Below are positions 25,841 to 62,626 of a stretch of 64,000 nucleotides of DNA, in pieces (the stretch's first letter is position 1; each line of letters begins with the position of its first letter). Source of the DNA: Caulobacter henricii (lineage in GTDB: Bacteria; Pseudomonadota; Alphaproteobacteria; Caulobacterales; Caulobacteraceae). The position numbers and the translations under genes were made by a program. Location: contig NZ_CP013002.1 of NCBI RefSeq assembly GCF_001414055.1, positions 1,488,001-1,552,000 on the forward strand, read 5' to 3'. The notes below the pieces were generated by a model. The model did not search any database. It had not been told where the DNA came from and saw only the letters and a program-made list of their open reading frames with translations.

Positions 25841-27223
25841 CTAGGTCTTGGACCGCGGTTCCCAGTAGGCGCAGTCGGTGAACGCCCGGCTGACATCGCC
25901 CTTCCACTTACCGTGATAGAGGGCAAGCAGGCGGTCGGCCCGGGTCAGGCCGCTGTCGGCGATCTCCTCCAGCTCGCCCAGATAGATGGTCTCGTCGAGG
26001 AAGCCGCCGTTCACGTGGGCGCGGTCCTTCAGGCCCGCCTTGGCAATGGCGACGAAGTCCTTGGCCACGTCCTGGGCGGTGCGGCCGGCGATCGGGGCCT
26101 TGAGCCCCAGGGTCGGCACATCGCGACGCAGGCCTGCCCGCTCCTCGGCCGTCCAGTCCTTGCAGAGATCCCAGGCTGCCGCGAGCGCCGCATCGTCATA
26201 GAAGACGCCAGTCCACAGGGCCGGCAGGGCGCAGAGGCTGCTCCACGGACCGGCATCGGCGCCGCGCATTTCCAGATAGGTCTTCAGGCGCACTTCCGGG
26301 AACAGGGTCGTGGTGTGGTCGGCCCAGTCCTTGATCGAGGCGCGCTCGCCCGGCAGCTCGTCGATCCGGCCGTCGATGAAGTCGCGGAAGCTGCGGCCGG
26401 CCAGGTCGATATAGCGGTCGCCGCGCTTGGCGAAATACATCGGAACGTCCAGCGCATAGCGGGCATAGCGCTCGAAATCGAAACCGTCCTCGAACACGAA
26501 ATCCAGCAGGCCGGTGCGGTCGGCGTCGGTATCGGTCCAGACATTGGCCCGGCTGGAGAGGAAGCCGTTGGGCTTGCCTTCCGTGAACGGAGAATTGGCA
26601 AACAGGGCCGTGACGATCGGCTGCAGGGCCAGGCTCACACGGAACTTGGCGACCATGTCGGCTTCGCTGGAGAAGTCGAGATTGGCCTGCACCGTGCAGG
26701 TGCGCAGCATCATGTCGAGGCCGAGGCCGCCGACCTTGGGCATGTAGTTGCGCATGATGACGTAACGCCCCTTGGGCATCACCGGCACCTGCTCGCGGGT
26801 CCACAGCGGCGAGAACCCCAGGCCCATGAAGCCCAGACCCAGCTCATCGGCGACGGTCTTGACCTCGTCGAGGTGCTGGCCGGTCTCCTGGCAGATGTCG
26901 TGCATGGTCAGCAGCGGCGCGCCGCTGAGCTCGAACTGGCCACCGGGCTCGAGGCTGACATTGGCGCCGTTGCGCTCCAGCCCGATCATGACCTCGCCTT
27001 CCATCACCGGCGTCCAGCCGAAGCGCTGCAGGCCGGTCAGCAGGGCGTGGATGCCCTTGTCGCCGTAATAGGGCACGGGCTCATGCGACCCCAGATAGAA
27101 GCCGAACTTCTCGTGCTCGGCCCCGACCCGGAACTGGTCCTTCGGCTTCGAGCCCTTGGCGAAATAGGCGGTCAGATCGTCGAGCGTCAGCGGACGCTCT
27201 TGCAGGCTAGCGGTGTCGGCCAT
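25841..27223 (-). CDS. gshA: glutamate-cysteine ligase, plant/alphaproteobacterial type
   Basis: A 460-residue enzyme for the first step of glutathione synthesis. Family landmarks include FRVGAEHEKFGF near residue 35, MEGEVMIGLERNGANVSLEPGGQFELSG in pieces around 75-110, and LQANLDFS-type and PYLEMRGAD-type segments. GAGGA before the ATG at 27223 supports this start over an ATG 15 bases upstream. It follows gor (gap 122 bp) on the same strand, giving a glutathione synthesis/recycling pair. Confidence 0.93.
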   Translation of the reverse strand: MADTASLQERPLTLDDLTAYFAKGSKPKDQFRVGAEHEKFGFYLGSHEPVPYYGDKGIHALLTGLQRFGWTPVMEGEVMIGLERNGANVSLEPGGQFELSGAPLLTMHDICQETGQHLDEVKTVADELGLGFMGLGFSPLWTREQVPVMPKGRYVIMRNYMPKVGGLGLDMMLRTCTVQANLDFSSEADMVAKFRVSLALQPIVTALFANSPFTEGKPNGFLSSRANVWTDTDADRTGLLDFVFEDGFDFERYARYALDVPMYFAKRGDRYIDLAGRSFRDFIDGRIDELPGERASIKDWADHTTTLFPEVRLKTYLEMRGADAGPWSSLCALPALWTGVFYDDAALAAAWDLCKDWTAEERAGLRRDVPTLGLKAPIAGRTAQDVAKDFVAIAKAGLKDRAHVNGGFLDETIYLGELEEIADSGLTRADRLLALYHGKWKGDVSRAFTDCAYWEPRSKT

Positions 27224-27345
27224 GCACGGCGTCCTCATAAATCTGTGCGGTACGGATAGGTCGGGCTGTCGGGTGTCGGTGCGCGAGGCTGCGTTTTTCC
27301 AAGGATTTCCAGACCGCGCATCAACCTGCAGGGTCTGGATCAAGG

Positions 27346-28740
27346 CTAAGTTCCCATCTCGGACGGCGCGTACTTCTCGCGCATCGTGACCAGTTCCTCG
27401 GCCAGGGTCGGGTGGACCGCGCAGGTGGAGTCCCACTGAGGTTTGGTGACGCCCATCTTTAGCGCGATCGCTGCCATCTGGATGATCTCAGGGGAGTCAG
27501 GCCCAACTACGTGGACACCCACGATCCGCTCGTCATCTTGCTTGACGACGAGTTTGACGAGGCACCGTTCCTGGCCACCGTAGAAGGTGGCTTTCATGGG
27601 CCGGAAGACGGAGCGATAGATGTCGACCTTGCCATAAGCCTGACGAGCTTGGGCTTCGCTCATGCCGACCGAGCCTACCGGCGGCTGCGAGAAAACGGCG
27701 GAGGCGACCATGTCATGATCAAAGGTGGTGGGGTTGTCGTAGAACTCGGTCTGGGCAAAGGCGGCACCCTCACGGATCGCCACGGGCGTCAGATTGATCC
27801 GGTCTGTGACATCGCCCACAGCCCAGATGCTGTCGATATTCGTTCGGGAGAATGCATCGACGGCGACGGCGCCCTTGTCGTTCAGGCTCACGCCGGCCTG
27901 CTCCAGACCGAGGCCCTGTGTGTAGGGCTCACGGCCTGTAGCGAACATCACCGCGCTGGTTTCGAAGGTCAGGTCGTTGCTCAGAGTGCTCAGCAGGCGG
28001 CCGTCATCCAGCATCTCGATGCTCCTGTGGGAGCAGCCCAGGACAACCTTGATTCCGCGCTTCTCCAGTTCGTCGGCCAGGTGCATTCGCACGTCGTCGT
28101 CGAAGCCGCGGAGGATGTTGGCTCCGCGATAGAGAAGCGTTGTTTCGACGCCCAAGCCGTTGAAGATCCCGGCAAACTCGACAGCGATGTAGCCGCCGCC
28201 TACTACCAGTACGCTCTTGGGCAGGGTTGATAGATGGAAGGCCTCGTCTGACGTGATCCCAAGCTCCGCGCCTGGAAAGTTGGGGCGAACAGGGCGGCCG
28301 CCCGTTGCCACCAGGATCTTGCGAGCGGTGTAGATCCCAGCGTCGTCACTACCCTCCTTGGCCAGGACTTCGACGGTGTGAGCGTCAAGGATCTGAGCGC
28401 GACCGTGCAGGAGACTAGCTCCAGCTTTTTGCAGATTGGTGACATAGACGCCTGACAGCCGGGCGATCTCGACGTCTTTCTCCTGCAGGAACTTTGTCCA
28501 TTCGAAGCCCGCATCGCCAATAGACCAGCCATAGCCGGCGGCGGTTCTGAGCTGGCTCGAGACCTCACTGGCATAGACCATGAACTTTTTGGGAATGCAG
28601 CCACGTACGACGCATGTGCCGCCCACCCGATACTCTTCGGCCACAGCAACTTTGGCACCACTCATCGCCGCCACACGTGCCGCGCGCACACCACCGGAAC
28701 CGGCGCCGATCACAAACAGGTCGAAGTCATAGTCAGTCAT
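27346..28740 (-). CDS. gor: glutathione-disulfide reductase
   Basis: A 464-residue FAD flavoenzyme that reduces GSSG with NADPH. FAD fold GAGSGG (12-17). Redox disulfide Cys43/Cys48 in GGTCVVRGCIPKK. NADPH-binding GGGYIAVEFAGIFNGLG (about 175-191). The C-terminal active-site histidine lies in HPTLAEE. It is upstream of gshA on the same strand. The presence of this CVVRGC form separates it from dihydrolipoamide dehydrogenase (CLNVGC). Confidence 0.94.
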   Translation of the reverse strand: MTDYDFDLFVIGAGSGGVRAARVAAMSGAKVAVAEEYRVGGTCVVRGCIPKKFMVYASEVSSQLRTAAGYGWSIGDAGFEWTKFLQEKDVEIARLSGVYVTNLQKAGASLLHGRAQILDAHTVEVLAKEGSDDAGIYTARKILVATGGRPVRPNFPGAELGITSDEAFHLSTLPKSVLVVGGGYIAVEFAGIFNGLGVETTLLYRGANILRGFDDDVRMHLADELEKRGIKVVLGCSHRSIEMLDDGRLLSTLSNDLTFETSAVMFATGREPYTQGLGLEQAGVSLNDKGAVAVDAFSRTNIDSIWAVGDVTDRINLTPVAIREGAAFAQTEFYDNPTTFDHDMVASAVFSQPPVGSVGMSEAQARQAYGKVDIYRSVFRPMKATFYGGQERCLVKLVVKQDDERIVGVHVVGPDSPEIIQMAAIALKMGVTKPQWDSTCAVHPTLAEELVTMREKYAPSEMGT

Positions 28741-46606: not shown

Positions 46607-47734
46607 TCAGTCCAGCGTCGTCCGATAGCGCAAGATGGCCAGACTGCCGACTACCACGACGAAGACGATTAGAGCGCTCAAGCTGCCCCAGGCGTTCTCC
46701 AGACCGACACCCTTGAGCAATGAGCCTCTGACAACGCGCAGGAAGTGGGTCACGGGCACGAGCGTGCCTAGCGCCTGCGCCCAGTCGGGCATTCCCCGAA
46801 AAGGGAAGACAAACCCGGATAGGAGGATCGAAGGCAAGACATAGAAGAAGCTCATCTGCATCGCTTGCAGCTGGGTCTTAGCGAGGGTCGAAATCAGAAA
46901 GCCTAGCGCGAGGGAGCCGACGATGAAGAGCAGGAGCCCGACCGCCAAGGCGAGCCAGCCCCCGTTCATCGGAACCTGAAAGAGGGTCCGGGCCAGAAGC
47001 AGGATTACGGCTGCCTGGAGCAGGCCGACGATCACATATGGGGCAAGCTTTCCGACCATAACCTCCAACGGACGCACCGGGGTGGCCAGCAAGCTTTCCA
47101 TCGTCCCCCTTTCCCGCTCTCGGGCCATGGCAAGGGACGTCATCATGACGAGAGTCATAGACAAGATCACGCCGAGCAGTCCGGGAACGACGCTGTAAGC
47201 ACTGATCTGTTCGGGGTTGTAGCGAGCTTGGGTCACGACGCTGAACGGTGGCGCGCCGTTCCCCCGGTTCGCAAGCGGCCCCGTGAGGTCGCGAGCCAGT
47301 GCGCCGTCTGGCAGTCCCTGAAGGGCGGCGAGTGCGCCGCTGGTCGCGGAGGGATCCGAAGCGTCCGCCTCCACAAGGACAACTGCGCTGTCGCCGCGCA
47401 CCACCCGGTCCGAGAAGTCGCCAGGGATGATGACCCCGAACTGGACCTCGCCGCGCTCCATTGCCTGATCGAGCTCGGCCTGACTGCGTGCCATCAGGGT
47501 GACATCGAAATAGGTCGAGTTCTCCATCGCTCGCACGACCGAGCGGGAGAAGGTGCCGTTATCGATTGCCAGGACGGCCGTCGGCAGATGCCGCGGATCG
47601 TCGTTCACCGCATAGCCGAACAGCAAGAGCTGAACGATCGGCAGCATCAGGATCATGGCGTAGGTGAGCCGGTCGCGGGTCAGCTGGACCAACTCCTTGG
47701 CCATAACCGCCCAAGTTCGTGTCAGATCTAGCAT
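46607..47734 (-). CDS. ABC-2 type permease (YbhS/YbhR-like)
   Basis: A 375-residue membrane protein: one N-terminal helix (about 25-43), a large extracytoplasmic domain (45-175), then five helices from about 180 to 370. The coupling region AMARERERGTMESLLATPVRPLEVMVGK is typical of ABC-2 exporters. The ATG at 47734 shares a base with the ATPase stop (TGATG). Last gene of the operon. E. coli ybhGFSR has two permeases; only one is present here. Confidence 0.92.
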   Translation of the reverse strand: MLDLTRTWAVMAKELVQLTRDRLTYAMILMLPIVQLLLFGYAVNDDPRHLPTAVLAIDNGTFSRSVVRAMENSTYFDVTLMARSQAELDQAMERGEVQFGVIIPGDFSDRVVRGDSAVVLVEADASDPSATSGALAALQGLPDGALARDLTGPLANRGNGAPPFSVVTQARYNPEQISAYSVVPGLLGVILSMTLVMMTSLAMARERERGTMESLLATPVRPLEVMVGKLAPYVIVGLLQAAVILLLARTLFQVPMNGGWLALAVGLLLFIVGSLALGFLISTLAKTQLQAMQMSFFYVLPSILLSGFVFPFRGMPDWAQALGTLVPVTHFLRVVRGSLLKGVGLENAWGSLSALIVFVVVVGSLAILRYRTTLD

Positions 47735-48678
47735 CAGGCGGCGTCCCGCTTCTCGGCTTCGAGGTCGGCGATTAGCTGGATGAAAACGTCCTCCAGCGTT
47801 GGTCGCGTCTCGGTCCACGCAATCCCGGGCTTGCGATAGGGAGCGATCGCCAACTCCAGTCCTCGACGGTCGCGCCCAGAGACGTGCAGGGTCGTACCGA
47901 AGGCCGCCGCCATGTCGACGCCGGGCATGCCGCGCAACCGAACGGCCAGCTTGTCAGCTCCGATACCTTCGACCTGCCCCACAGCATGGAAGGTGATGAG
48001 GCCCGACTGGTCGATCACCGCCTCGGCGGTCCCGCGCGCCAAAGTCCGACCGCCGGCTATATAGGCGATCTCGTGGCAGCGCTCCGCCTCGTCCATGTAG
48101 TGAGTAGAAACCAGCACCGTCATGCCGTCAGCGGCAAGGGCGTGGATCTCGTCCCAGAATGTCCGCCGCGCCTCAGGATCAACACCCGCCGTCGGCTCGT
48201 CCAGGAGCAGCAGATCGGGTTCGTGCAGGGTCGAGCCTGCCAGGGCCAACCGCTGCTTCCAGCCGCCGGAGAGGGTGCCGGCCAACTGACGCCGCCGGGC
48301 CTCTAGCCCCAGTTGGGTGATCGCGGCGTCGACCCGCTCGCGACGACGATCCAGCGAGTGGACCCGGGCCGTGAAGATCAGGTTCTGCTCAATCGACAGG
48401 TCTTCGTAGAGCGAGAACTTCTGGGTCATGTAGCCGACCCGCGTTTTGATCTGTCGGGCCTGTCGGATAACGTCGAGGCCCAGCACCGTGCCTTCGCCGG
48501 CGTCGGGCGTCAGCAGGCCGCAGAGCATGCGCAAGGTGGTCGTCTTGCCTGCGCCGTTGGGCCCTAGGAACCCACAGATACTGCCACGCTCGACGGTGAT
48601 CCCGAAATCCCTGACCGCGTGAAGCGCGCCGAAGCTCTTGTTCAGCCCCTGGACATCGATCGCGGGACCGGGGCTCAC
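47734..48678 (-). CDS. ABC exporter ATPase (YbhF-like, single domain)
   Basis: A 314-residue ATPase with Walker A GPNGAGKTTTL, signature LSGGWKQRLALAG, Walker B LLLLDEPTAGVDP and switch His in STHYMDEAERC. The C-terminal 80 residues form the usual regulatory extension of drug-export ATPases. It overlaps the HlyD gene by 4 bp and the permease by 1 bp, so the four genes TetR-HlyD-ATPase-permease are coupled. Confidence 0.94.
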   Translation of the reverse strand: MSPGPAIDVQGLNKSFGALHAVRDFGITVERGSICGFLGPNGAGKTTTLRMLCGLLTPDAGEGTVLGLDVIRQARQIKTRVGYMTQKFSLYEDLSIEQNLIFTARVHSLDRRRERVDAAITQLGLEARRRQLAGTLSGGWKQRLALAGSTLHEPDLLLLDEPTAGVDPEARRTFWDEIHALAADGMTVLVSTHYMDEAERCHEIAYIAGGRTLARGTAEAVIDQSGLITFHAVGQVEGIGADKLAVRLRGMPGVDMAAAFGTTLHVSGRDRRGLELAIAPYRKPGIAWTETRPTLEDVFIQLIADLEAEKRDAA

Positions 48679-49655
48679 GGGACCGCCAGGGGTTCGACGT
48701 CAACCGGCAGGCCCGGGTTCAGGCTTCTGGGGGCGGAAGGCCTAGCCTCGACCTGATAAACCAGCCGATCGCGGCTGCCCCGGCCATACAGGACGGGCGG
48801 TGTGAACTCCGGCCGGGGGCTGACCCAGCTGATCCGCGCCGTCCGGCTCTCGCCGCAGCCGTCACAACTGAATCGGACGATGCCGCCGGGTTGATAGGCG
48901 ACCATCTCGGCCTGGGGCACGTAGAACCTCAGTTTAACGTCCCCGTCGGCCAATAGGGCCAGGATCGGCTGGTTCGCGGCAGCGTATTCTCCCAGCCGGA
49001 AGAAGATTTCCTCGACCCGGGCGTCGACCGGCGCGGGAGGAGACAGGGTCGTTAAACGCACTGAGGCTTCGGCCAGTGCGCCTCGCGCCTGGGCCGCCTG
49101 TTCGTCTGCGGCCCGAATGGCGTCCTCGCGCTGGCCCAGGGTCGCGACCTCGCGCTGTCGGCGGATCGCCGCGACATTGGCCCTCGCGGCGTCGCGTTCG
49201 GCCCGGACTTGGTCCAGCCGGGCGGGGGCGTAGATGCCCCGCCGGACTAGCGGCTCGATCCGCCCATAGTCCGCATCCGCCTGTCTCAACGTCGCCTCGG
49301 CTGCGCCAAGCTGCGCGTCGATGACCGACAGTTCCTGCGCTCTCTGGCCTTTGCGGGCGTCCTCGGCGCGGGCCTCGGCCGCGCTCAAGGACGCTTGCGC
49401 GCCAGACACTTGGGCGCTCCGTTCGCGCGGATCAATCAAGAAGGTCGCCGCGCCCGCCGCCACCCGTGCTCCCTCTTCGACATATAGGGCTGAGACCACA
49501 CCCGCGCTGGGCGCTGCCAGATAGATCCGCTCGCCCTCGATATAACCGGTTAGGACCCGGGGTCCGTCCGCGCTTCGGGCGAACGACCACCAGGCGATGG
49601 AGACTACGCCGAGCGCCAGAGCGACCCCTGCAACCATCTTCATCCGAGGTCTCAT
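48675..49655 (-). CDS. HlyD-type periplasmic adaptor (YbhG-like)
   Basis: A 326-residue membrane-fusion protein with an N-terminal membrane anchor (VAGVALALGVVSIAWWSFA), a lipoyl-like domain (VVSALYVEEGARVAAG), a long coiled-coil hairpin (about 75-200, rich in Ala, Gln, Arg) and a beta-barrel. It belongs to the ABC exporter below it and overlaps the TetR gene by 4 bp. Confidence 0.93.
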   Translation of the reverse strand: MRPRMKMVAGVALALGVVSIAWWSFARSADGPRVLTGYIEGERIYLAAPSAGVVSALYVEEGARVAAGAATFLIDPRERSAQVSGAQASLSAAEARAEDARKGQRAQELSVIDAQLGAAEATLRQADADYGRIEPLVRRGIYAPARLDQVRAERDAARANVAAIRRQREVATLGQREDAIRAADEQAAQARGALAEASVRLTTLSPPAPVDARVEEIFFRLGEYAAANQPILALLADGDVKLRFYVPQAEMVAYQPGGIVRFSCDGCGESRTARISWVSPRPEFTPPVLYGRGSRDRLVYQVEARPSAPRSLNPGLPVDVEPLAVP

Positions 49656-50278
49656 GGACGCATTCCCTTCAGGCAGGTTTCGACGTGCTGGGCGATCAGA
49701 CGATCGATCTGGACAGGCTCGGCACCAATCGGCTCGAAGGTCTCGCGCCAGAGGGTGCTGAGCAGGACCGGGCCCATTAGGCCCATGGCGAAGTAGCGGG
49801 CGTCGCCGTGCCGGACGGCACCCTGCCGCTGGCCTGCCTCGATCAGGCGGGAGGCGAGGCCGAGGGCCGGCGCGATCATGGCCTCATGCCAGATCCGGGC
49901 GAGCTCGGGCTGATTGCGGCTCTCGGCGATCACCAGCTTGATCACCCCGCTCATGCGCCAGTCGGACGCCATGCGTTGCGAGATCATCGTGAACACTGCC
50001 CGAACCGTTGACTCGAATGGGACCTCAACGGCGGTGAGGCCGATGACCTGGTTCAGGTTCGGCGCGATCGACTGGGTGACCACTGCCCGGAACAGGGCCT
50101 CCTTCGTTTCGAAATAGAGATAGACCGCGCCCTTGGAGACGCCGGCGCGGCGCGCCACTTCCTCGACACGCGCCGCCGCGAAGCCGCGTTCGGCGAAGAC
50201 CTCAAGGGCTGCCGCAAGGATTTCTTCTGGCCGATCGGCTGGGCGGCGACGGAACTTGGGTTCACCAGGCGGGAGCAT
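49652..50278 (-). CDS. TetR-family regulator (CecR-like)
   Basis: A 208-residue repressor with HTH at about 20-60 (ILAAALEVFAERGFAAARVEEVARRAGVSKGAVYLYFETKEALF in parts) and an all-helical ligand domain. It is the first gene of the exporter operon, and a perfect 18-bp palindrome lies 14 bp upstream of its ATG, so it most likely represses its own operon. The gene order matches CecR-YbhGFSR of enterobacteria. Confidence 0.93.
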   Translation of the reverse strand: MLPPGEPKFRRRPADRPEEILAAALEVFAERGFAAARVEEVARRAGVSKGAVYLYFETKEALFRAVVTQSIAPNLNQVIGLTAVEVPFESTVRAVFTMISQRMASDWRMSGVIKLVIAESRNQPELARIWHEAMIAPALGLASRLIEAGQRQGAVRHGDARYFAMGLMGPVLLSTLWRETFEPIGAEPVQIDRLIAQHVETCLKGMRP

Positions 50279-51411: not shown

Positions 51412-51925
51412 GGGGCTGTCAGGTTAATCGCGCCAAGTTGAATCGAGCCAATATTTGGCCGTCTCAGGCGGTGGCCTTCGCCCAAGCGGCATGAGCCTCC
51501 GCGTGAAGGCGGCGAAGGTTGCAGCGGCTGATCAAGTGTGGGGCTGGACGGCTAAGGTGGTGTAGACGGCGGCGTAAGTAGACAGGAAGCGCCGGGCGGA
51601 TGACGGGCTCCTGAAGCACTGCATTCTTCGCGCCCGTCGGCGGACGGGGAGGGAGAGTTCTCGGCTCGATTGTTTTTCCGAGGCTGTCCAGGCCGGTGAA
51701 GGTGCTCCAAATCCAGCGTCCGCAGTGCTGCTGGGTACGAAGCTAGGCCGTCGGTGGTGATGCGCTCTGTCTCGATCGGCTGGCGACGAAGAAGTCGCTC
51801 AAGGAACCTTCGAGCCGCCGACGTGTCCCTCCGACGTTGCATCAGCAGTTCCAGAACCTCGCCCTCGTCGTCGACCGCACGCCAGAGAAGCATGTGCCCG
51901 CCGCCGATCCAGCAGACCATTTCGT
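51412..51925 (-). mobile_element. IS6-family element copy C, left end only
   Basis: Starts with the clear terminal repeat GGGGCTGTCAGGTTAATCGC at 51412 and runs into transposase sequence on the minus strand. Similarity to copy B stops at about 51925, near the codons for LDEVVC. The right end and the first 85 or so codons are gone. The break lies only about 45 bp from the end of the tniQ gene. Confidence 0.85.
51464..51925 (-). pseudogene. IS6-family transposase fragment (copy C)
   Basis: Matches the transposase from EMVCWIGGGHMLLWRAVDDEG to the C-terminal AAWAKATA, including the second Asp (TTDGLASY) and NNRAEN. A frameshift after NNRAENS and the missing N-terminus with the first catalytic Asp make it inactive. 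Confidence 0.85.
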
Positions 51926-51969: not shown

Positions 51970-53850
51970 CTAGCTTTGGCGCGGCGGTCTTCGCCGACGT
52001 TGCGTTGACAGTAAATGCAGGCGGGACCTTGGCAGATCAAATGCCGCCTCGGCTTGCTGCCGATCCCAGAAGCCTGCATTTCGATAAGCCCGCCTCAAGC
52101 CCCGTTGCTTGGCCACAAGAGCGAAATCAAGCGAGGGCATCTCTGCGCGTGCCGCCAACTCGCCGGTGCTAATCAGGTCACGACAACACGCTTGGACACT
52201 CTGAATGCAGACCCCGCGACCGGACCGGTTCAAGGCTCCCGCCTTGATCAGTTCAGCGATGTCACGTGGGTGGCAATTGAGGTGCTCTTGGGCCTCTGAC
52301 AGCGTGATGTCGCTCGAAATTCGAAACCGGGTGGGTGGGAAGCAAAAAGCCCCTGATTGCAGGAGTTTGGCGCAGTTTCGGGTTACGTTGAGTGCCGCGC
52401 TATCGAGTCCTTGGGGCTCAAATGACCCCAGGCCGTCAGGCAGAAATTTAGGAGCCATGATCGCCTGCAGCCAGGGCTTCGGGCCCGGCCCCATCCGCAT
52501 GAAAACGTCGCGCAAAAGTACCCGTGTTGGGTCTTCAGGATCGGTCCGCACGATCGCGGCTGAGATTCGGTTGAGATATGCCGTCGCTGAGTCCTTGCGA
52601 AGTTGCACCTTCTTGTAGGCGATTGCGATCAATGGAGCGGTGGCTTGTTCGATCAGCCCCAGCGTAGCCATTTCCAAGATCCATGACGATTTCAAGCCAT
52701 ACTGCTCGGCCAGTTGCGCGACAGAGATCCGGGACTGCGCCTCTTGGATCAACTCAGCAAGACTGGCTTCCTCCACGACACTCAGGACGCGCTCTGATCC
52801 GCCGCCGACCGCCTCGCCGCGCAGAATGCCATTTTCCATAAGCGCCTTGGCCGTACTACGCCCTACGCCCAGTCGGCGTGCGGCAATCGTCAGATTGTTG
52901 GCGTGAGTGGCGACCCGCGGCGACTGAAAAAGTCGGCTCTCGTCTACCAACCGAAATAACGTATCCCGCAACTCGTCCGGCGCCTCATTGGCCGTACGCC
53001 TGAGAAACATCCGCGAGTCAGTGACATACGCGGGCGGAGCCTTGGTCACGTCCCAGCCAGGTTCATCCTTGGCTTGATCCAGGACGAAGCGCATTCCTGC
53101 TAGCATCGCCTTCGGGTAGCTTCTCGGTAAGCCTGACATCTTCGCCAGAGGGTGCTTTGCCGCCCGCAAGGCACGCCCGATTGCCATGACGGCTCGAAGA
53201 ATGTCGAAGGGTGACAACGCGACCAGAAAGTCGCTCAACTGGTCAAGTGAGGACGCCCGGACCCTCTGGTCGAAGCTCACCAATCCCGCCGCGATCTGCA
53301 AGTAGGCGCGATGCTCTCGTTGAATTTTCGGTGTTTTTGCTGTCGTCAGGTCTAGGCCGCAGTGAGCGCATGTGTGAAAGGGGCCGTCGCTCCAAGTTAA
53401 AAGCCGACCACAAGTCGGTGAGGGACAGTAGAAAAGCAGGAGGCTAAAATCTTCTGGGCAGAAAGAAAGCAGACGCAATGACCATAAAAATCGGTAGTGC
53501 GGCGATCGCTTGAGGCCTGTTGGCGACACGGGGCAGCTATTTCGCCTTACCTCGCCTGGGGCATAGGAAACGCCGTAAGAAATTAGAGTTTTCTCGTTGG
53601 CGAATTGGCGGGGGACTGCACGCTTAAGCGCTTCCGCCTCGACACCATAGAGTTGGGCCATTGCATGAACGTCTACCTCGCCGGTCCAGAGTTGCTTCAA
53701 ACCAGCATTCACGCCGCTCAGCAGTTGGCTGGGCCTTTTGTAGGTATTGTGCTCAGCGACGCGGCCGACATAGCCGCGGATTGATTCACCGAGCACCAAT
53801 GGTAGGGGGAAGCGAACCGGCCGGATTTTTTTAGTGGAAGAGGGTGGCAT
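51970..53850 (-). CDS. tniQ: TniQ/TnsD-like target-selection protein
   Basis: A 626-residue DNA-binding protein. The N-terminal TniQ domain (PLPLVLGESIRGYVGRVAEHN) leads to zinc-binding cysteines (CPSPTCG and CAHCGLDL, about 148-180), then several HTH-like segments (VAQLAEQYGLKSSWILEMA; LSEAQEHLNCHPRDIAELIKAGALNRSG). In Tn7-like elements such a long TniQ recognises a fixed attachment site. The last residues (STQRRRRPPRQS) are basic and low in complexity, close to the IS6 break, so the C-terminus may be altered. ATG shares a base with the tnsC stop. Confidence 0.88.
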   Translation of the reverse strand: MPPSSTKKIRPVRFPLPLVLGESIRGYVGRVAEHNTYKRPSQLLSGVNAGLKQLWTGEVDVHAMAQLYGVEAEALKRAVPRQFANEKTLISYGVSYAPGEVRRNSCPVSPTGLKRSPHYRFLWSLRLLSFCPEDFSLLLFYCPSPTCGRLLTWSDGPFHTCAHCGLDLTTAKTPKIQREHRAYLQIAAGLVSFDQRVRASSLDQLSDFLVALSPFDILRAVMAIGRALRAAKHPLAKMSGLPRSYPKAMLAGMRFVLDQAKDEPGWDVTKAPPAYVTDSRMFLRRTANEAPDELRDTLFRLVDESRLFQSPRVATHANNLTIAARRLGVGRSTAKALMENGILRGEAVGGGSERVLSVVEEASLAELIQEAQSRISVAQLAEQYGLKSSWILEMATLGLIEQATAPLIAIAYKKVQLRKDSATAYLNRISAAIVRTDPEDPTRVLLRDVFMRMGPGPKPWLQAIMAPKFLPDGLGSFEPQGLDSAALNVTRNCAKLLQSGAFCFPPTRFRISSDITLSEAQEHLNCHPRDIAELIKAGALNRSGRGVCIQSVQACCRDLISTGELAARAEMPSLDFALVAKQRGLRRAYRNAGFWDRQQAEAAFDLPRSRLHLLSTQRRRRPPRQS

Positions 53851-54782
53851 TAGCAGGGCCTCCGGCGAAACGGATTAATGCTGACGAGACCCAGTGGGAT
53901 CGCCCAGCGGTCAACCGCCAGTGCTAGGTCGTAGGTTTCGATCCGGCTTGCCCCACGCCGAGTGGCAATCTCTAAAGCATGCTCGAACAGTGTTGCGACG
54001 CGGCCGATGACGCCGCCGCTAGCTTCGTAAAGGCAGCTCAGCGTAATTGCGTCGTCCAATGAGCCTATGGTGGGCATAAGGCCCACTTTGACGATCTCCC
54101 GGTTTAGGTGAGACACGAACTTCGCCAAGGTTTTGCGATCTGCGGGATCGTTTTTGTCCAGGGGTAGAAGGTCGCAAGGCGGCAGCAATCGGTTGCTGAG
54201 TTGGACATTGCGCCGAAACATGCTCTCGGCCTCCTGCGTTCCAAGGAAGACGATCGGAACCACCCCTGCGTCCAAGAAAACCTTCAAAGCATCGGTGACA
54301 TCGTTCTGAGCATTGATGCGAAAGTTCAGGTGCTGAACTTCGTCGATGATCAGAAGTTCGACGCCAAGCCTTTCGAGGTAGTCGAGAACTCGCTGCCTAA
54401 GCCCTTGCTCTGTTCCAGATTCCGGCCTCGCATCGCCCAGTTCGGCGAGCAGAGACACGTAGAGTTTTCGGGCTGTAGCGGCCTTTTCGAGCTGTATGTA
54501 GAGCACCGGCACAAGTTGCGAGCTGGGATCCATAGACGCCATAGCCATCTTTATGTAGGTGCTAGCGACTTTTGTTTTCCCTGAGCCGGACGGGGCCAAT
54601 ACTCTCAGTCCTTTTTGGGGCGTCCCTCGAAGTGAGCAGCCAAGCTTCTGTAGATAGTCAAACCGGGCATGAAGTGTGATGTGCCTCGGATATGGAATGA
54701 AGATTGCTCGAAATCGCAGAAGGTTTTCGGCGACGAGCGTGTTCATCGCTGGCCCGTGATCCTCATCGAAGTTGTCGGTCAT
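53850..54782 (-). CDS. tnsC: TnsC/TniB-like AAA+ transposition ATPase
   Basis: A 310-residue ATPase with Walker A LAPSGSGKTK (about 66-75), Walker B LLIIDEVQHL and a sensor-1-like FLGTQEAE. It would form a filament on DNA, linking TniQ-bound target to the transposase. I chose ATG 54782 because it overlaps the tnsB stop as ATGA; an ATG at 54800 is possible. Length is close to TniB/short TnsC. Confidence 0.9.
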   Translation of the reverse strand: MTDNFDEDHGPAMNTLVAENLLRFRAIFIPYPRHITLHARFDYLQKLGCSLRGTPQKGLRVLAPSGSGKTKVASTYIKMAMASMDPSSQLVPVLYIQLEKAATARKLYVSLLAELGDARPESGTEQGLRQRVLDYLERLGVELLIIDEVQHLNFRINAQNDVTDALKVFLDAGVVPIVFLGTQEAESMFRRNVQLSNRLLPPCDLLPLDKNDPADRKTLAKFVSHLNREIVKVGLMPTIGSLDDAITLSCLYEASGGVIGRVATLFEHALEIATRRGASRIETYDLALAVDRWAIPLGLVSINPFRRRPC

Positions 54783-57010
54783 TGCGCAAACCCCTTCCAT
54801 TCCCCACCGCCGCCAAGGTCGAAAACGGCTTCATCACCCGTCTCCGGGTAGTCGGCTTGCCAAAGTCGAGCGGGATCGGTCGGTTTGGCTTTGGATCTCG
54901 CCTTGGGCGGACTTGGGGGCTTGGTCTTCCTCTTGGTTGGGCGTGGCGGGCGTGTTGGAGCCAGTCCCCCATCGACCCGAAGGCTCGAGAGCGCGTCATG
55001 TGGAATGACTGCAGCCAGCCCATCGTGGCGTGCCGGTGCGTAGGCGAGGCTGACAGTGTCGCCTTGCAGGCTTTGGATCTTCGGAGAGTTTAGCAAGCGC
55101 GCCGCGCGTTGGCGCCCACGGGTCGTCAAATCCGGTGAAAACTGCTCAACTAAACGAACCATGGCAGCGCGTGCTGCAAGGCGCTCCTCTGGACTGGAAA
55201 AATCCTCGCCCTTGAGTCTCGACCAATCTTCCAGGTGCTTATGCTGGAACACCGATAATCCATCGGCATAAGCGCGTTCTAGGCAAGGCAAGGTTACGTA
55301 AGTATTCCGGCGAGCGTTCCAGACATGGATTTCGCTAAGATTTGCCGGGTTGTACTTGATCTTGGCGGTAAACGACGCCGAGCCTTTGGGCTGATTGCGC
55401 CTTTCCGCCAGGCCAGCCAGATCATCCAGCAGCGCCCCAACCGCATCAGCGTCGAAGTAGCGGAGGTTCTTGAACTGTACCCCCGTTTTGGCGACCCGGC
55501 AGCCGTCACGCATGGCACCGACCAATTTGTCGAGCCTCGTCAATTCAGTGAGGGTAGGTATCCCGTGGGCATTCATCTGCTCTTCCCAGATTTGGGCTGG
55601 CGGAGCATTGAGGGCTCTGTGCTCTTCGAAGTGATAGAGACACACTGCTTCGTTGATCAGTAATTCGAGCTCCTCCAGCGTCAGGATCGCGGTGTTCCGC
55701 GGATCGATGCCCATTTCTCGGAGGAGTTCGGGCTTCAGGGTCGCGCCCGGAAGTTTGTCGAACAACATCGTCTTTAGCGTGAGAAAGAAGCGCTCACCGA
55801 TCGCTTTGAAGGTCGGGGAGGCGATGGGGGCCCAGCGGACCGAGGTGGAAATCTCAATCATGGCGTCTTCGAAAGCGACGCCGCTTAGGTCCTTTCCGTT
55901 GTCAGTGACGATCTCGTCTACGTGGCCGAAAATCGTGACCATCTGCCGGTACCGAGGATGCGCCGCAGACAGGGACAGCTTTGGACAGCTGGCGCGCTTG
56001 ACGCATTCGGTCGCCGAATAAAGCGACGGAGGCTCGAAACTTACGACCCAGCCAAGTACGCAGCGCGTGAACACATCGACTAACACTGTAAGCCAGGGGC
56101 GCCCCATTGGCAGGCGTTGGTCGGCGCTCATAACAACGACGCTGTCGACCATAGTATGGTCGAGGCATCCCAACTCTAGGAAGCGCTGAGCGACAAGGCC
56201 CTCTCCGGACGGCTCAAAACGGGCCTTGGCCTTTTTCTCTCCAAACCTGGCGGCATAGGTTTCGTAGCATTCGAGACGGTTGATCTCTTTGCGGAATGTC
56301 TCCTCGCTCGGTCGCTTCAGTTGGGGAAGATAGGAAGCCCGCGATTTACGGGCACGATTGATCCGCGCGAGGCAGACGCAAAGCAGGGCGTAGGCGTCCT
56401 TCTTGTTTAGAGCGAAGTTGACCCAGAATTTCATGGCAAATCGCCGAAGCAATTCGCAAGTCTCGGGCGGGAAGCGACGGGCGCGCGGCACCCGCCCGCT
56501 CATCGAGACCATCTGCGCCATCTTCCGGTCGAAGAAGGAGCCGCGTTCCTTGAGCCAGCGTCTCACAGTTCGCACGCATGGCTTGCGATCGAAGGCCATA
56601 ACCCTCACGGGGTCCATGTCCCACAGCTTGGCGATGGCGAGATGAAGCTTCCGATCGCTTAACGAACCTACGCCCAGCTTATCAAGACCACGCACGACGA
56701 AGGCCCGAAACTCAGCCTGCCGGTCCATCTTTCGGATCTGGTCGAGGTCATATTCGCGCTTGGCCGCCGCTTGCCTTGCCCGCGTCCCGCTTACTTTGGG
56801 CCGTCGGACCAGCTGGCCGCGCGCGTAGGCTTCCATCGCCCACACTGTGTTCGGAAGATGCAAGATTCCGTCGACGTCAGGTACCTGTAGCGGCCCGCCA
56901 CTGGGCTCGACCATGAAATACAGATTTCCATCGCCAATCTCATTCTGGAAATAGACGGGCTGACCTTTGTAGACCCAGCATTCACCGGTCTGAAAACGGA
57001 TGATGCTCAT
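54779..57010 (-). CDS. tnsB: TnsB-like DDE transposase
   Basis: A 743-residue Mu/retroviral-integrase-type transposase. After N-terminal DNA-binding domains (about 100-260) the catalytic core has Asp289 (HTMVDSVVV), Asp370 (EIVTDNGKDL) and Glu406 (KAIGERFF), with 35 residues between the last two. A C-terminal Pro/Lys-rich tail (about 690-735) is the likely TnsC-contact region. The ATG overlaps the tnsA stop as ATGA. All catalytic residues are intact. Confidence 0.92.
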   Translation of the reverse strand: MSIIRFQTGECWVYKGQPVYFQNEIGDGNLYFMVEPSGGPLQVPDVDGILHLPNTVWAMEAYARGQLVRRPKVSGTRARQAAAKREYDLDQIRKMDRQAEFRAFVVRGLDKLGVGSLSDRKLHLAIAKLWDMDPVRVMAFDRKPCVRTVRRWLKERGSFFDRKMAQMVSMSGRVPRARRFPPETCELLRRFAMKFWVNFALNKKDAYALLCVCLARINRARKSRASYLPQLKRPSEETFRKEINRLECYETYAARFGEKKAKARFEPSGEGLVAQRFLELGCLDHTMVDSVVVMSADQRLPMGRPWLTVLVDVFTRCVLGWVVSFEPPSLYSATECVKRASCPKLSLSAAHPRYRQMVTIFGHVDEIVTDNGKDLSGVAFEDAMIEISTSVRWAPIASPTFKAIGERFFLTLKTMLFDKLPGATLKPELLREMGIDPRNTAILTLEELELLINEAVCLYHFEEHRALNAPPAQIWEEQMNAHGIPTLTELTRLDKLVGAMRDGCRVAKTGVQFKNLRYFDADAVGALLDDLAGLAERRNQPKGSASFTAKIKYNPANLSEIHVWNARRNTYVTLPCLERAYADGLSVFQHKHLEDWSRLKGEDFSSPEERLAARAAMVRLVEQFSPDLTTRGRQRAARLLNSPKIQSLQGDTVSLAYAPARHDGLAAVIPHDALSSLRVDGGLAPTRPPRPTKRKTKPPSPPKARSKAKPTDPARLWQADYPETGDEAVFDLGGGGEWKGFAQ

Positions 57011-57843
57011 GCCAAACCTCCCGCGACCGAGGCTGCCGGGGCGAGGAGGCGGACCGATGCGTCAGCCAAGCGGCGCGCATTCAAGTCAATTTCGAGAAAT
57101 CGGCCGACCATCATCGCGCACGCTTGGGCCAGGCCCAGTCGGCGCTCCCCTAACTCATCCGCCAAACGACCCAATGCGATTGAGCCATTCGTGCGCTCGC
57201 ATAGCTCGGCTGCCGCAAACACTTCGCGAGCACTGTATTTCGCGAAGCGAGATAGCTGAACGGCCTCTACATTCAGGTTCCATGTTGTGCGCTCACGCAA
57301 TGGGGCGCCATGTACAACCCGAAACCGCCAGCCAAGGACTTTACAGATCTGCCGCACTGCCTCCAGCTTTTGGCTGTACTCCGGATCTTGAAGTGCACGA
57401 TGGTCATGCTTGACCTCGACGACCTCCAAGCCCCCATCGGCGCATTGGCGGACACAGTCAGCGATGTAGATCCGCTGAGCCCCGTCGAGCACGAACTCAA
57501 ACCGAAAGGGCTGGGATTTGTAGTCGACCACCGTTGTGTCGACCTCAGAGTGAATGAAGAAAGCCCGCTCATTCATGCTCTCGTGGACCAGGCCGCCCTT
57601 AGCTTTGCGGCTGTTATAGACGCCGGTAACCTCACGCCTACGACCGGTGATGATTGTGCGGATTGGGCGACCATCTGGCGTCAGCACGACCCGTGCAATT
57701 GCGCTCATTGAGGCCCAGCCATTTGGGTCGGCCGGTTTGGCTAAGCCGAACAGGATCATTTCCCGCAGGGTGGGTAGTGTCTTAGTCGTTGGGACGTGTC
57801 TGAGTTTAGTGTCGGCCGTAGCCATTGATGTGCTGTGTTCCAT
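57007..57843 (-). CDS. tnsA: TnsA-like endonuclease
   Basis: A 278-residue protein. The N-terminal restriction-enzyme-like domain has Glu92 (MNERAFF), Asp129 (YIADCVR) and Glu143-x-Lys145 (VVEVKHD), the catalytic set that cuts the 5' ends in Tn7. The C-terminal helical half would bind TnsC. Presence of TnsA predicts cut-and-paste rather than replicative movement. An alternative start, Met7 at 57825, is possible. First of the four coupled transposition genes. Confidence 0.88.
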   Translation of the reverse strand: MEHSTSMATADTKLRHVPTTKTLPTLREMILFGLAKPADPNGWASMSAIARVVLTPDGRPIRTIITGRRREVTGVYNSRKAKGGLVHESMNERAFFIHSEVDTTVVDYKSQPFRFEFVLDGAQRIYIADCVRQCADGGLEVVEVKHDHRALQDPEYSQKLEAVRQICKVLGWRFRVVHGAPLRERTTWNLNVEAVQLSRFAKYSAREVFAAAELCERTNGSIALGRLADELGERRLGLAQACAMMVGRFLEIDLNARRLADASVRLLAPAASVAGGLA

Positions 57844-57910: not shown

Positions 57911-57973
57911 TGAGCAGTTGACTTTTGGCGTTCGCGGGGGGAATCTGAAGCGTCTGAGCAAGACGACTTCTGG
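57911..57973 (+). repeat. two imperfect direct repeats upstream of tnsA
   Basis: TGAGCA-n3-GACTT-n-TGG at 57911-57928 and TGAGCA-n4-GACTT-n-TGG at 57955-57973, 44 bp apart. Repeats of about 20 bp in this position are expected of TnsB-binding sites in a Tn7-like right end. A distant inverted look-alike (CCAGAAGCGATCAGCA, 51282-51297) lies on the other side of the element. Confidence 0.4.
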
Positions 57974-57990
57974 AAAATTCCCAGCTTAAG

Positions 57991-58019
57991 GCTCGAGCAC
58001 TCCAATGCTCGAGCTTTTT
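57991..58019 (+). terminator. intrinsic terminator (plus strand)
   Basis: A 9-bp perfect stem GCTCGAGCA / TGCTCGAGC with a 6-base loop, followed by TTTTT at 58015-58019. No plus-strand gene upstream is visible. It may insulate the minus-strand regulator from readthrough or end an unannotated short RNA. Confidence 0.7.
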
Positions 58020-58068
58020 GCTTGTGCACCGCTATAGTCTATAGCTCCCTGGGGCTGGATCTCCTTCT

Positions 58069-58278: not shown

Positions 58279-58373
58279 CAGCGCTCTCCGAGAAATTGGC
58301 GCGAGTCATCAGATAGCACTGATGCGAATTTGGCAATTGATGGATTTCCGTCAACTTGGATCGGTAGAATGTT

Positions 58374-58459
58374 GCCAAGGGACCCTTGGCGCGATTTCCG
58401 ATGATCCATTACTTCTACGGACAAGGAGTCCTTGGCAAAGTGGGCAAGACCCCCTTGCC
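58374..58459. promoter_or_regulatory. three 17-bp palindromic operators
   Basis: Site 1 GCCAAGGGACCCTTGGC (58374-58390) is a perfect dyad. Site 2 GACAAGGAGTCCTTGGC (58420-58436) has one mismatch. Site 3 GGCAAGACCCCCTTGCC (58443-58459) has two. Centres are 46 and 23 bp apart. They share the core CAAG-n9-CTTG and lie just upstream of the Ner-like gene. Confidence 0.8.
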
Positions 58460-59585: not shown

Positions 59586-60039
59586 AGCTCGGCCTTTTCT
59601 ATCGTTCCAATAGTCGGGAACCGACGGATACAGGAGTCGGCGTGGCGAGAAATGAGAAATTTCGCCCTGCGCTCAACAGACTCGCCCTGCCATTCTGTAG
59701 TCAGCCGGCGGTCGGTTCGACTGCTCCAACGTCCTGATGTCTACCGCCAGCTGCAGCTTTCAATTGTCGAAAAGGACCTCGCGAGGCCTCGCGGTTCGCC
59801 ATAGCGGTTGCACTCCAAAGGGTTTCGCAAGCTTCGACGGCTCGGCGCCAGGAGCGGAACTTGCCGCACGTTCAGGAACACGACCTTCAGCACGGCTACC
59901 TGCATCAGCCCAACGCAACGTTTCAGGCGCTTCGTGCGCCAAGGTTTATCACGCGAGAAGCCAATCGTGACGGAACCGCTCGAAGCAGACTAAGCTAAAG
60001 CGGCCGTTGTCTGGGGGCGGCACTCGCCGGTGGAGTCGC
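59586..60039. other. 454-bp spacer between mucR-like and GNAT-PIN genes
   Basis: Divergent intergenic DNA that must contain promoters for both genes. Several open frames occur but none has homology or a ribosome site. Confidence 0.4.
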
Positions 60040-62178
60040 ATGGCCTTTCGCATCGAGACGAATGTGGCTGTCATCCAAGGCTTCGTTGCGGATATCCGCG
60101 CGGCGGCGGACACCGACAAAGAGGCGCTGGGTTTTCTTCCTGCCTCGGCTTACGATCAGGCCGCCCGAAAAGGGGAACTGACCGTCGCGCTGCAGGATGG
60201 CCCCCACGGCCCAACCTACGCCGGTCACATCTGGGTTAGCGGCCTTTTCCCGCATGCCCGTGTCGTCCAGCTGTTCGTGGCTCAGGCCTACAGGGGGCAG
60301 AAGCTGTCGACGCGTCTGCTGCGGGCGGCGATCCAGTCGGCGGAAGCTAGCGGCTTCCTGACCATCTTCGCGAGGGTAGCCGCCGATCTGGCGGCGAACC
60401 AGGTCTATGAACATCACGGCTTTGTTGTCGTCCGCACCAAGCCGGGGGGGCAGGCCCGCAACCGCCAAATCCACATTCGGTCCCGTGAACTTTCCACTCC
60501 GACGTTATTTAACTACCGCCCCACGTCCGTGGTGGCAGTGGACGACAGCGCGACACAAAGCAGCCAGCAGCTCTACCTGATCGACTTGAACGTGTTCTTC
60601 GACGCCACCCGGCAGCGTCGCTTTACCCCCGCTGCAGAAAAGATCCTGGCCTCGGCACTGAATAGCGGCGTCCGCCTTGCCGTTACGAACGAGTTCGTGA
60701 AAGAGCTGCAGCGCACCACCGTCGGCAAGAACGATCCTGTGTTGAGCTTTGCGAAACAGCTGCCGACCGTGTCCGGCCCGTCGCGGCCGGAGATCGAAAG
60801 TCTAGCCGCCCGTTTAGCGCCGACCGTTTTCCCAGACCAGTCGCGCGATGGGACCCTATCGACCAATGACCATTCCGACCTTAGGCACCTGGCGGAAGCG
60901 ATCTTGGCGGGTGCAGCAGGCTTCGTGACGGGGGAAAACGGTGTCTTGCGAGCCCACGCTGCCCTTCGGGAGCAGCATGGCCTTAACGTCTGGTCGACCG
61001 ATGACTTTGCGATCTTCCTGACTCCTGTCTTGGCGGAGCTGCCAGTCGCTGGGCACGCTGAACACGATCTGACCTTCACGGATGAGAAGTCGCTTTCCGC
61101 CGAGGCTGTGACTTTCCTAAAGTCCCACGGTGCCGTCGACAGCGTGATCGGGGCGTTCAGCCGCTTGGACGCGGCTGACAAGCGGTTTCGCTACCTGGCG
61201 GCGCGCGAGGCGCAGGCGCTAATCGCCTTTGCCGCCTGCCGTGTAGCTCCCGGACCGGCGGATGCGGTCGGCCTCCTCCTGGTAGCCGATCCCCGCCACC
61301 CGGCCACGCCCACCGCTCTGGACTTCCTGGTCGAGCACGTCGTGCGCGTTTCAAGCTTGTCTCGCCCCTCTCGCCTCGAGATGGCCCACGTCGATAGACA
61401 GTCCGTGGCGCGGATCACCGCGATCGAGAACGGCTTCGTGGCGGCGCGATCCGGCGCCGACGCCCCCTTGCGTAAGATCGCCGTCGGGACGGCGGTCACA
61501 CCGGTCAACTGGACCGCACTGCGCGACCGAATCCAAAAAGGCACCGGCCTGACGCTGCCGGCCGACTGTCCAGATTTCCGAGACGACGAACAGGAGATCG
61601 CCGTCACGTTGGATGGGCGCGCCGCTAGCCTGCCCTTGGCCAGCCTCGAGTCCATGACGGCGCCGGGCCTGTTCCTGCTCAAAGATCGCCCCGTCGCGGT
61701 CGTGCCTATTCGCCGCGCCTGGGCCGAGGACTTGGTCGGCGGGCCCCAGCTCAGCTTCTTGCCGAAACCAGAGGCCGCGTTTCGTTCGCGCCGGGTCTAC
61801 TTTGCGTCCGTGCGCAACCAGCACATCTTGGTGAAAGGGCGCCCCATAATCCTCTACGAGTCAGGCAAGGACGGCGGCCGGGGCGCGGCGATCGCCATCG
61901 CCAGGGTTGCGTCGGCGGAAGCGGTGCCGAAGGCGCGTGCGCCTGACTCGCTCTTACGCGCGGCCGTGGTCCGCGGCGGCGATCTGCAAAACTTGGTAAA
62001 GGGCACGACCGTTCTTGCCGTGTGGTTCGACAATATTATGCGCTTCGAACACCCCGTGTCGTTCCAGCGCATGAAATTGCTCGGCCTCGCTGATCCGACA
62101 AACCTAGTTAAGAGTCACATGCTTAAGTTTGAGACCGCAGTGAAAATTCTCGACGCTGGACGTCCCGATGCGCGATGA
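60040..62178 (+). CDS. GNAT-PIN fusion protein
   Basis: A 712-residue protein. Residues 1-150 form a GNAT acetyltransferase (VVQLFVAQAYRGQKLSTRLLRAAI is the acetyl-CoA loop, then ANQVYEHHGFVVV). Residues about 178-330 form a PIN nuclease: Asp182 (YLIDLNVFFD), Glu218 (NEFVKEL), Asp280 (HSDLRHLAE) and the late acid in TGENG/STDD. The rest (330-712) is unrecognised and may bind the substrate. GGAG precedes the ATG at 60040. Its stop overlaps the ASCH gene by 11 bp. Likely an RNA-targeting toxin-like or defence enzyme (inference). Confidence 0.82.
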   Translation: MAFRIETNVAVIQGFVADIRAAADTDKEALGFLPASAYDQAARKGELTVALQDGPHGPTYAGHIWVSGLFPHARVVQLFVAQAYRGQKLSTRLLRAAIQSAEASGFLTIFARVAADLAANQVYEHHGFVVVRTKPGGQARNRQIHIRSRELSTPTLFNYRPTSVVAVDDSATQSSQQLYLIDLNVFFDATRQRRFTPAAEKILASALNSGVRLAVTNEFVKELQRTTVGKNDPVLSFAKQLPTVSGPSRPEIESLAARLAPTVFPDQSRDGTLSTNDHSDLRHLAEAILAGAAGFVTGENGVLRAHAALREQHGLNVWSTDDFAIFLTPVLAELPVAGHAEHDLTFTDEKSLSAEAVTFLKSHGAVDSVIGAFSRLDAADKRFRYLAAREAQALIAFAACRVAPGPADAVGLLLVADPRHPATPTALDFLVEHVVRVSSLSRPSRLEMAHVDRQSVARITAIENGFVAARSGADAPLRKIAVGTAVTPVNWTALRDRIQKGTGLTLPADCPDFRDDEQEIAVTLDGRAASLPLASLESMTAPGLFLLKDRPVAVVPIRRAWAEDLVGGPQLSFLPKPEAAFRSRRVYFASVRNQHILVKGRPIILYESGKDGGRGAAIAIARVASAEAVPKARAPDSLLRAAVVRGGDLQNLVKGTTVLAVWFDNIMRFEHPVSFQRMKLLGLADPTNLVKSHMLKFETAVKILDAGRPDAR

Positions 62179-62626
62179 AGACCCGATCATGCTGTCGGTC
62201 GCCCCCCAGTACGCGCGGGCAATCCTCGCCGGCATAAAAGGCGTCGAACTGCGGCGGCGAGCGCCCCGCCTTCAGGCCGGGACCCGAGCCTGGCTCTATT
62301 CTACCCTCCCGGTTGGCGAGGTTGTCGCAATGCTAACCATCGACAAGGTGGTCGAAGCGCCGCTAGCCGAGCTGTGGGGGCGATACGGCCCTCACACCGC
62401 CATCGCCCGCCCGGCTTTCGACGCCTATTTCGCCGGACTAGATCGCGGCGCGGCGCTCATTATTCGGGACGTCCAGGCACTCAAGGAGCCCGTCTCTCTC
62501 CAGGCTCTGCGGGAAAAGGGCGCGTTCCAACCCCCGCAATTCTATCGCCGGATGGGTTCGGACGCGCCAAACGCGCTCTTGAATGACAGTGAATTGCATC
62601 CTGCAGTTCAGGTTGCAGTGGGTTAA
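62168..62626 (+). CDS. ASCH/PUA-like domain protein
   Basis: A 152-residue protein. IMLSVAPQYARAILAGIKGVELRRR and TRAWLYSTLPVGEVVAMLTI match the ASCH fold (PUA-like, RNA or nucleotide binding). C-terminal QFYRRMGSD has an aromatic/basic patch. The ATG at 62168 overlaps the GNAT-PIN gene by 11 bp, with ATG 62189 as alternative. Strict coupling suggests that the two proteins act together, for example ASCH as RNA-sensing or antitoxin-like partner (inference). Confidence 0.85.
   Translation: MRDEDPIMLSVAPQYARAILAGIKGVELRRRAPRLQAGTRAWLYSTLPVGEVVAMLTIDKVVEAPLAELWGRYGPHTAIARPAFDAYFAGLDRGAALIIRDVQALKEPVSLQALREKGAFQPPQFYRRMGSDAPNALLNDSELHPAVQVAVG

Follow-up and report, generated by a model that had tools for sequence, protein, structure and literature searches.

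What does a complete set of Tn7-type transposition genes in a Caulobacter chromosome belong to, and where does such an element insert? We asked this of a 64,000-nucleotide stretch of Caulobacter henricii DNA (NZ_CP013002.1, positions 1,488,001 to 1,552,000; the window hereafter), part of a 3.86-Mb contig in a 3.96-Mb genome (G000), which carries a tnsA-tnsB-tnsC-tniQ operon at 51970-57843. Positions above 64000 carry the window numbering on past its edge. An earlier note on this DNA had described the operon as a complete Tn7-like set without CRISPR, whose long TniQ points to a fixed attachment site. Our analysis indicates that it very probably belongs to a Tn7-like transposon that is intact, free of CRISPR and part of a Caulobacteraceae (alphaproteobacterial) clade, and that is presumably directed by TniQ to the gene for tRNA-Arg(CCT), at which such elements are stacked. 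What can be read directly in the DNA is the operon, the two ends of the element with their TnsB-type repeats, the duplications of 5 bp, the junction with the tRNA, which recurs in many genomes, and the placing of two elements in tandem.

The tnsA-tnsB-tnsC-tniQ operon

All four genes lie on the minus strand and were recognized as open reading frames with profile matches, supplemented by alignments for TnsA, TnsB and TniQ, a tree for TnsB and a structure model for TniQ. The TnsA endonuclease (57007-57843) matches the TnsA N-terminal domain (PF08722, 1e-9), and its residues E92, D129 and K145 align on E63, D114 and K132 of Tn7 TnsA and do not vary among 16 TnsA proteins; a PDB search with TnsA gave no match. 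The DDE transposase TnsB (54779-57010) shows weak matches to the rve and Mu C-terminal domains. Across 24 TnsB/TniA proteins its D370 and E406 are invariant, and so is D289 apart from a single reference row, in which a proline probably reflects local misalignment. The AAA+ regulator TnsC (53850-54800) matches PF05621 (TniB/TnsC, 3e-27) and has the Walker motifs LAPSGSGKT and LLIIDE. The last gene (51970-53850) encodes a TniQ/TnsD-like target selector of 626 residues (PF06527, 2e-5), with a TniQ domain, a zinc ribbon whose cysteines C142, C147, C161 and C164 are invariant in 13 relatives, and about four helix-turn-helix (HTH) modules.

The integrity that the earlier note had ascribed to the catalytic residues, Walker motifs and zinc fingers is borne out, and the alignments revealed no loss of a catalytic residue that would disable the machinery. 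Its account of the gene overlaps needs one amendment: ATGA at the tnsA/tnsB junction and TAATG at tnsC/tniQ are present, and tnsB overlaps tnsC by ATGA only when translation of TnsC begins at Met7 (54782) and not at the first ATG (54800). Paralogous operons of identical gene order were found in related genomes, so the gene set is not a chance association. These comparisons confirm the operon as the intact engine of a CRISPR-free Tn7-type element.

Two elements in tandem

A search with the end-repeat motif found on the tRNA side of these elements recovered their left ends as mirror images. Element 1 extends over 58,430 bp (8376-66805, of which 8376-64000 lies inside the window) between perfect 12-bp terminal inverted repeats (TIRs), TGTGGGGCCAAC and GTTGGCCCCACA, with TnsB-type end repeats and with the 5-bp sequence CGATA on both sides. 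Its left end (8376-8500, plus strand) opens with a terminal TGTGGGG and bears several repeats resembling TnsB sites, (C)CAACTTAA, in the same layout as the left ends of relatives. Directly to its right lies element 2 (66811-104980, 38 kb), holding the second tnsABC-tniQ set of the genome, 30 kb to the right of the first, with a TnsB 45% identical. The target-site duplication occurs three times: at 8371-8375, preceding TGTGGGGCCAAC; at 66806-66810, between ...GTTGGCCCCACA and TGTGGGGACCAC; and at 104981-104985, between ...GGTCCTTACA and tRNA-Arg(CCT), where one base separates it from the CCA end of the tRNA. Both the TGT...ACA ends with arrays of predicted TnsB-type repeats and the 5-bp duplication (CGATA here, other 5-mers in five further genomes) are what is expected of Tn7-like elements.

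The simplest reading of these sequences is that two Tn7-like elements are stacked in tandem at one tRNA-Arg(CCT) site. Since insertion always takes place beside the tRNA, element 2 would be the later arrival, and since later insertions push older ones outward, element 1 would now stand 38 kb from its own target. The earlier note had expected a fixed attachment site and seen none nearby; the site is there, 47 kb from the operon in the direction of tnsA, and it was not obvious because the second element sits in between.

Elements inserted at one site share a duplication, so that CGATA by itself cannot pair the ends. Element 1 might then not be a single 58-kb unit: the end at 8376 could derive from a third, older element, a deletion or an IS6 rearrangement having removed the inner ends. 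The IS6 copies and host-type genes inside element 1 would suit such a history, as would the distance between tniQ and the left end, 43 kb here and only about 260 bp in the genome G020. However, the repeats at 8376 and 66805 are identical at 12 of 12 bp, whereas the TIRs of element 2 differ, and the genome has native gshA and gor genes apart from those carried in this region, which is what one would expect if the latter were acquired cargo. We therefore regard a composite origin as unlikely and retain the single unit. Plain chromosomal DNA was also considered for 8.4-51 kb and rejected, given these native copies and the perfect pairing of the ends.

The attachment site in related genomes

A first scan with TnsB covered 199 relatives and found related proteins in 14 genomes, 11 of them of the same genus (G000 counted); a pattern-based search of genome contigs with a single TnsB gave no relatives. 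Within the genus TnsA, TnsB and TnsC are about 45-60% identical, TniQ just 22-38%. In nearly all related loci a tRNA-Arg(CCT) gene lies near the operon with its 3' end facing the element. The element end next to the tRNA has two TCTTAAGTTG-type repeats about 22 bp apart and terminates in ...ACA. From this conserved end to the CCA of the tRNA there are usually 4-7 bp in Caulobacter, with single cases up to 15 bp, and the junction is present in 14 of the 32 Caulobacter genomes whose tRNA-Arg(CCT) flank was read. The left end and the tRNA junction are bordered by exact 5-bp duplications in G020 (GCACT), G034 (GCCGC) and G005 (GTTTC), and also in G021 (TCTCG), where the ends lie on two contigs. 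Stacked ends were seen again in G065, G073 and G005. Five of the six Brevundimonas loci with a related TnsB likewise have tRNA-Arg(CCT) with its 3' end toward the element, and TGTCG ends 5-8 bp past it. G031 shows that the DNA bordering element 1 on the left belongs to the chromosome, where it otherwise lies 7.6 kb from the tRNA. A further exact duplication, TGGCG, flanks a 9.3-kb element at the tRNA in G057 (L095, 9543 to about 18800); no tns gene was recognized in this stretch, which may be a non-autonomous relative.

The tns genes might instead be mere passengers of an integrase-type genomic island at the tRNA. A tyrosine-integrase island does use the same tRNA in G069, and several other Caulobacter genomes have different, non-Tn7 sequence behind it. 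What is found at the junctions, though, is 5-bp duplications, TGT/ACA ends and TnsB-type repeats, without any duplication of the tRNA 3' end; the tRNA itself is complete, and the same pattern recurs in two genera, which makes a passenger role extremely improbable. The G069 locus (L059, 12640-14058), with its island beside a tRNA-Arg fragment plus repeat families, was rejected as an example of an empty site. It suggests that integrases and Tn7-like elements compete for tRNA-Arg(CCT).

Several observations weigh against homing of an intact element to this site. The comparison with genomes lacking the element that the earlier note had proposed succeeded in part: the left flank was seen as chromosome in G031, and no truly empty site bearing the two flanks seen in G000 was found, G031 retaining a 7.5-kb remnant of a decayed element. 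No matching left-end duplication was found for G048 and G036. In the Caulobacterales metagenome-assembled genome G106, tRNA-Arg(CCT) is on the tniQ side, not the tnsA side. Element 1 is unusually large and contains a 36-kb IS6-flanked block of host-type genes, perhaps gained after insertion. Finally, the TniQ proteins of the family are only 22-38% identical to that of element 1, and tRNA binding by TniQ is something we infer. On the locus in G106 (L040, 5349-5425) it can be added that the element may be inserted there in the opposite orientation.

TniQ and the proposed mechanism

TniQ consists of the TniQ core and zinc ribbon followed by a long C-terminal half. In its AlphaFold model about four HTH modules appear near residues 319-357, 373-411, 516-546 and 558-600; with a mean predicted local distance difference test (pLDDT) score of 73.5 and a predicted template modelling (pTM) score of 0.44, the relative placement of the domains is unreliable. 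Structure comparison relates the N-terminal part to TnsD and to TniQ of the type I-F3 CRISPR-associated transposons (CASTs), and two of the HTH modules to excisionase/MerR-type HTH domains. The layout agrees with that published for TnsD (PMC10293859). Insertion downstream of a tRNA gene is characteristic of tRNA-homing TnsD proteins of the I-B2/I-D type. The fixed site itself is observed in many relatives; that TniQ may recognize the tRNA-Arg(CCT) gene is suggested by these modelled HTH modules.

We propose that TniQ, acting as TnsD, would read the tRNA-Arg(CCT) gene through its C-terminal HTH modules and recruit TnsC to the DNA just past the tRNA 3' end. TnsA and TnsB would excise the element in a cut-and-paste manner and insert it at the 5 bp directly beside the tRNA, which would stay intact. 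Each new element would land next to the tRNA and shift earlier ones outward, so that element 2 would be the younger.

Relationship to known transposons

In a tree of the TnsB core the 13 family members form one clade (100/100 support), separate from the TniA proteins of Tn5053/Tn402 (100/99), from I-F3 CASTs, Tn7 and ShCAST, the order among the groups not being resolved. Tn5053/Tn402 elements are homologous in their TniA-B-Q core, and the TniB and TniQ domain names and the IS481/rve-type transposase could suggest an element of this res-hunting kind. Those elements, however, have no TnsA and target res sites, whereas here TnsA is present with its catalytic triad, TnsB falls outside the well-supported TniA clade, TniQ is long with several HTH modules and the site is a tRNA gene. 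The probability of a Tn5053/Tn402-like element is virtually nil, and the assignment to the Tn7-like group made in the earlier note stands: all four genes, tnsA, tnsB, tnsC and tniQ, occur together with intact catalytic motifs.

The features shared with Tn7 are the TnsA catalytic triad, the DDE residues of TnsB, an AAA+ TnsC, a TnsD-like selector, TGT/ACA ends with repeated TnsB-type sites (TCTTAAGTTG here, TCTTAAACTG in Tn7, with the R721 copy as reference), a 5-bp duplication, and insertion behind an essential gene that is left unharmed. In contrast to canonical Tn7, the target is tRNA-Arg(CCT) and not glmS, TnsC has about 310 residues instead of 555, cargo lies on both sides of the tns genes, and a Ner gene and a hairpin block are found upstream. 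No TnsE was recognized beside tniQ, the genome not having been searched with a TnsE profile.

By sequence, the closest solved structures for TnsB and TnsC are proteins of the I-F3 CASTs (Tn6677, PseCAST), which also provide the closest TniQ folds. This raises the question of whether the element is a CAST whose CRISPR part has been lost or resides at another genomic locus. However, neither element contains array-like repeats, and no Cas1 was found in the genome (Cas1 being the only cas gene searched genome-wide), in agreement with the CRISPR-free character claimed earlier; moreover, both the length of the TnsD-like TniQ and the recurrence of the tRNA site among many relatives are consistent with homing guided by a protein. 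We give derivation from a CAST only the slightest probability. Unlike the I-F3 systems, the element has no Cascade, and its TniQ has predicted C-terminal DNA-binding modules of its own.

A closer functional parallel is found in the I-B2 (PmcCAST) and I-D (CyCAST) systems, in which a long TniQ/TnsD with several HTH modules directs protein-guided homing to a tRNA gene (PMC10293859, PMC11406308), as predicted here from sequence. The distinctions are that CyCAST inserts 30-33 nt past the tRNA, against usually 4-8 bp here, and that the present family has no CRISPR system, another tRNA and a single TniQ. Its TnsB does not form a clade with I-B2, a part of the tree that is weakly resolved.

A conserved hairpin block upstream of tnsA

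A conserved non-coding block (57918-58025, plus strand) is directed away from tnsA and lies between it and a small gene for an HTH regulator of the Ner family (PF13693; 58072-58278, minus strand), which is convergent with the block and not found in every relative. The block was recognized by comparison of relatives, a model scan and folding. It comprises a promoter-like TTGACT-N17-GAATCT (57918-57946, plus), two short hairpins and a terminator-like hairpin with a T run (57983-58022, plus). Among relatives TTGACT is invariant, the spacer is exactly 17 bp, the -10 box is of the GA...T type, and two small hairpins are followed by a third that mostly has a T run, lacking in G020 and G036. All the Caulobacter elements, and five of the six from Brevundimonas, have the block upstream of tnsA. 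A model built on its first 69 positions, Brevundimonas loci not being used, was scanned against 75 genomes and matched only tns-bearing loci, one locus with a scrap of tnsA (G027) and a weak lone site in G012; in 596 kb of other loci it gave only five matches (E 0.006 to 0.96), all in Brevundimonas elements, where its position upstream of tnsA and its orientation are the same as well.

RNAalifold found no consensus structure on a MAFFT alignment of the block, because the hairpin registers slide by 1-2 nt, and structure was judged instead by single-sequence folds against shuffles. For 12 sequences these folds beat the shuffles (Fisher p about 5e-5 and 1e-5, values overstated by relatedness), and the hairpins are retained while their sequence varies. 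An Rfam search with the block gave nothing credible. Guidance of insertion by pairing of a block RNA with the tRNA site was rejected, the longest matches being no better than in shuffles.

The block is probably a family-specific small RNA or attenuator-like control element, as predicted from its sequence, and apparently, as far as our literature search could tell, it has not been described before. More specifically, it may be a dedicated structured RNA, divergent from tnsA, that helps to control transposition, a proposal to which we give somewhat less than even weight; in its simplest form the RNA would regulate tns expression in trans or in cis. That such an RNA would be part of the TnsC-TniQ complex is the extreme variant and very unlikely. 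We infer that the upstream module as a whole, with its Ner-type repressor, divergent promoter and hairpin block, probably controls expression. Upstream of the Ner gene there are also element-specific palindrome-like repeats, possible operators, in the window at 58373-58456 (GCCAAGGGACCCTTGGC) and at L007:16105-16214 (TGCAATCCCGCTTGCA, twice).

Cargo genes

The cargo of both elements is, by predicted function, largely anti-phage defence, to which spare glutathione genes are added. The right arm of element 1 encodes a GNAT-PIN and an ASCH protein (60007-62626, plus), which match the PADLOC candidate pair PDC-M11A/B, and its right end a complete Thoeris system, ThsB-ThsA-ThsB (63820-66323, plus; L006:11820-14323). 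Its 43-kb left arm includes transporters, NhaA and second copies of gshA (glutamate-cysteine ligase) and gor (glutathione reductase) (25841-28740, minus), with 91% and 77% DNA identity, respectively, to the native copies. An ABC drug-exporter operon with a TetR gene (46607-50278) is core in the genus, yet in this genome it occurs only inside the transposon. The 36-kb segment of extra host-type genes is flanked by two IS6-like copies on the left (14681-15187 and 15265-15772) and by an IS6-like fragment beside tniQ on the right (51412-51925). As a hypothesis, the IS6 copies flanking 15.8-51.4 kb may have brought the segment in.

Element 2 carries a complete BilABCD operon for ubiquitin-like conjugation in defence (93457-96278; L008:1457-4278), RtcB, and, at 69143-81674 (L006/L007), a helicase with a DUF1998-like end, a DpdE/DrmD-like SNF2 helicase, a DrmMI-like methylase and an HNH gene, apparently a hybrid cluster of DISARM/Dpd/Druantia type.

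Implications

What had been an orphan gene set is now a delimited transposon with ends, a duplication and a target. A literature search with limited reach into subscription journals found no paper on such Tn7-like elements in Caulobacter and none on Tn7-like elements with tRNA-Arg in Alphaproteobacteria. The Caulobacteraceae clade of Tn7-like elements, which sequence evidence predicts to home to tRNA-Arg(CCT) and which forms natural tandem arrays, is defined by the use of one tRNA at very short spacing. An alphaproteobacterial integrase that is compact and guided by a protein to a tRNA 3' end could serve as an insertion tool. Should the hairpin block prove to be an RNA, it would add a new regulatory component to those known in Tn7-like elements. 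For the biology of the family, the natural arrays, in which diverged elements share a site, open two questions to experiment: by what means target immunity is circumvented, and how one target is retained by TniQ proteins with only 22-38% identity.

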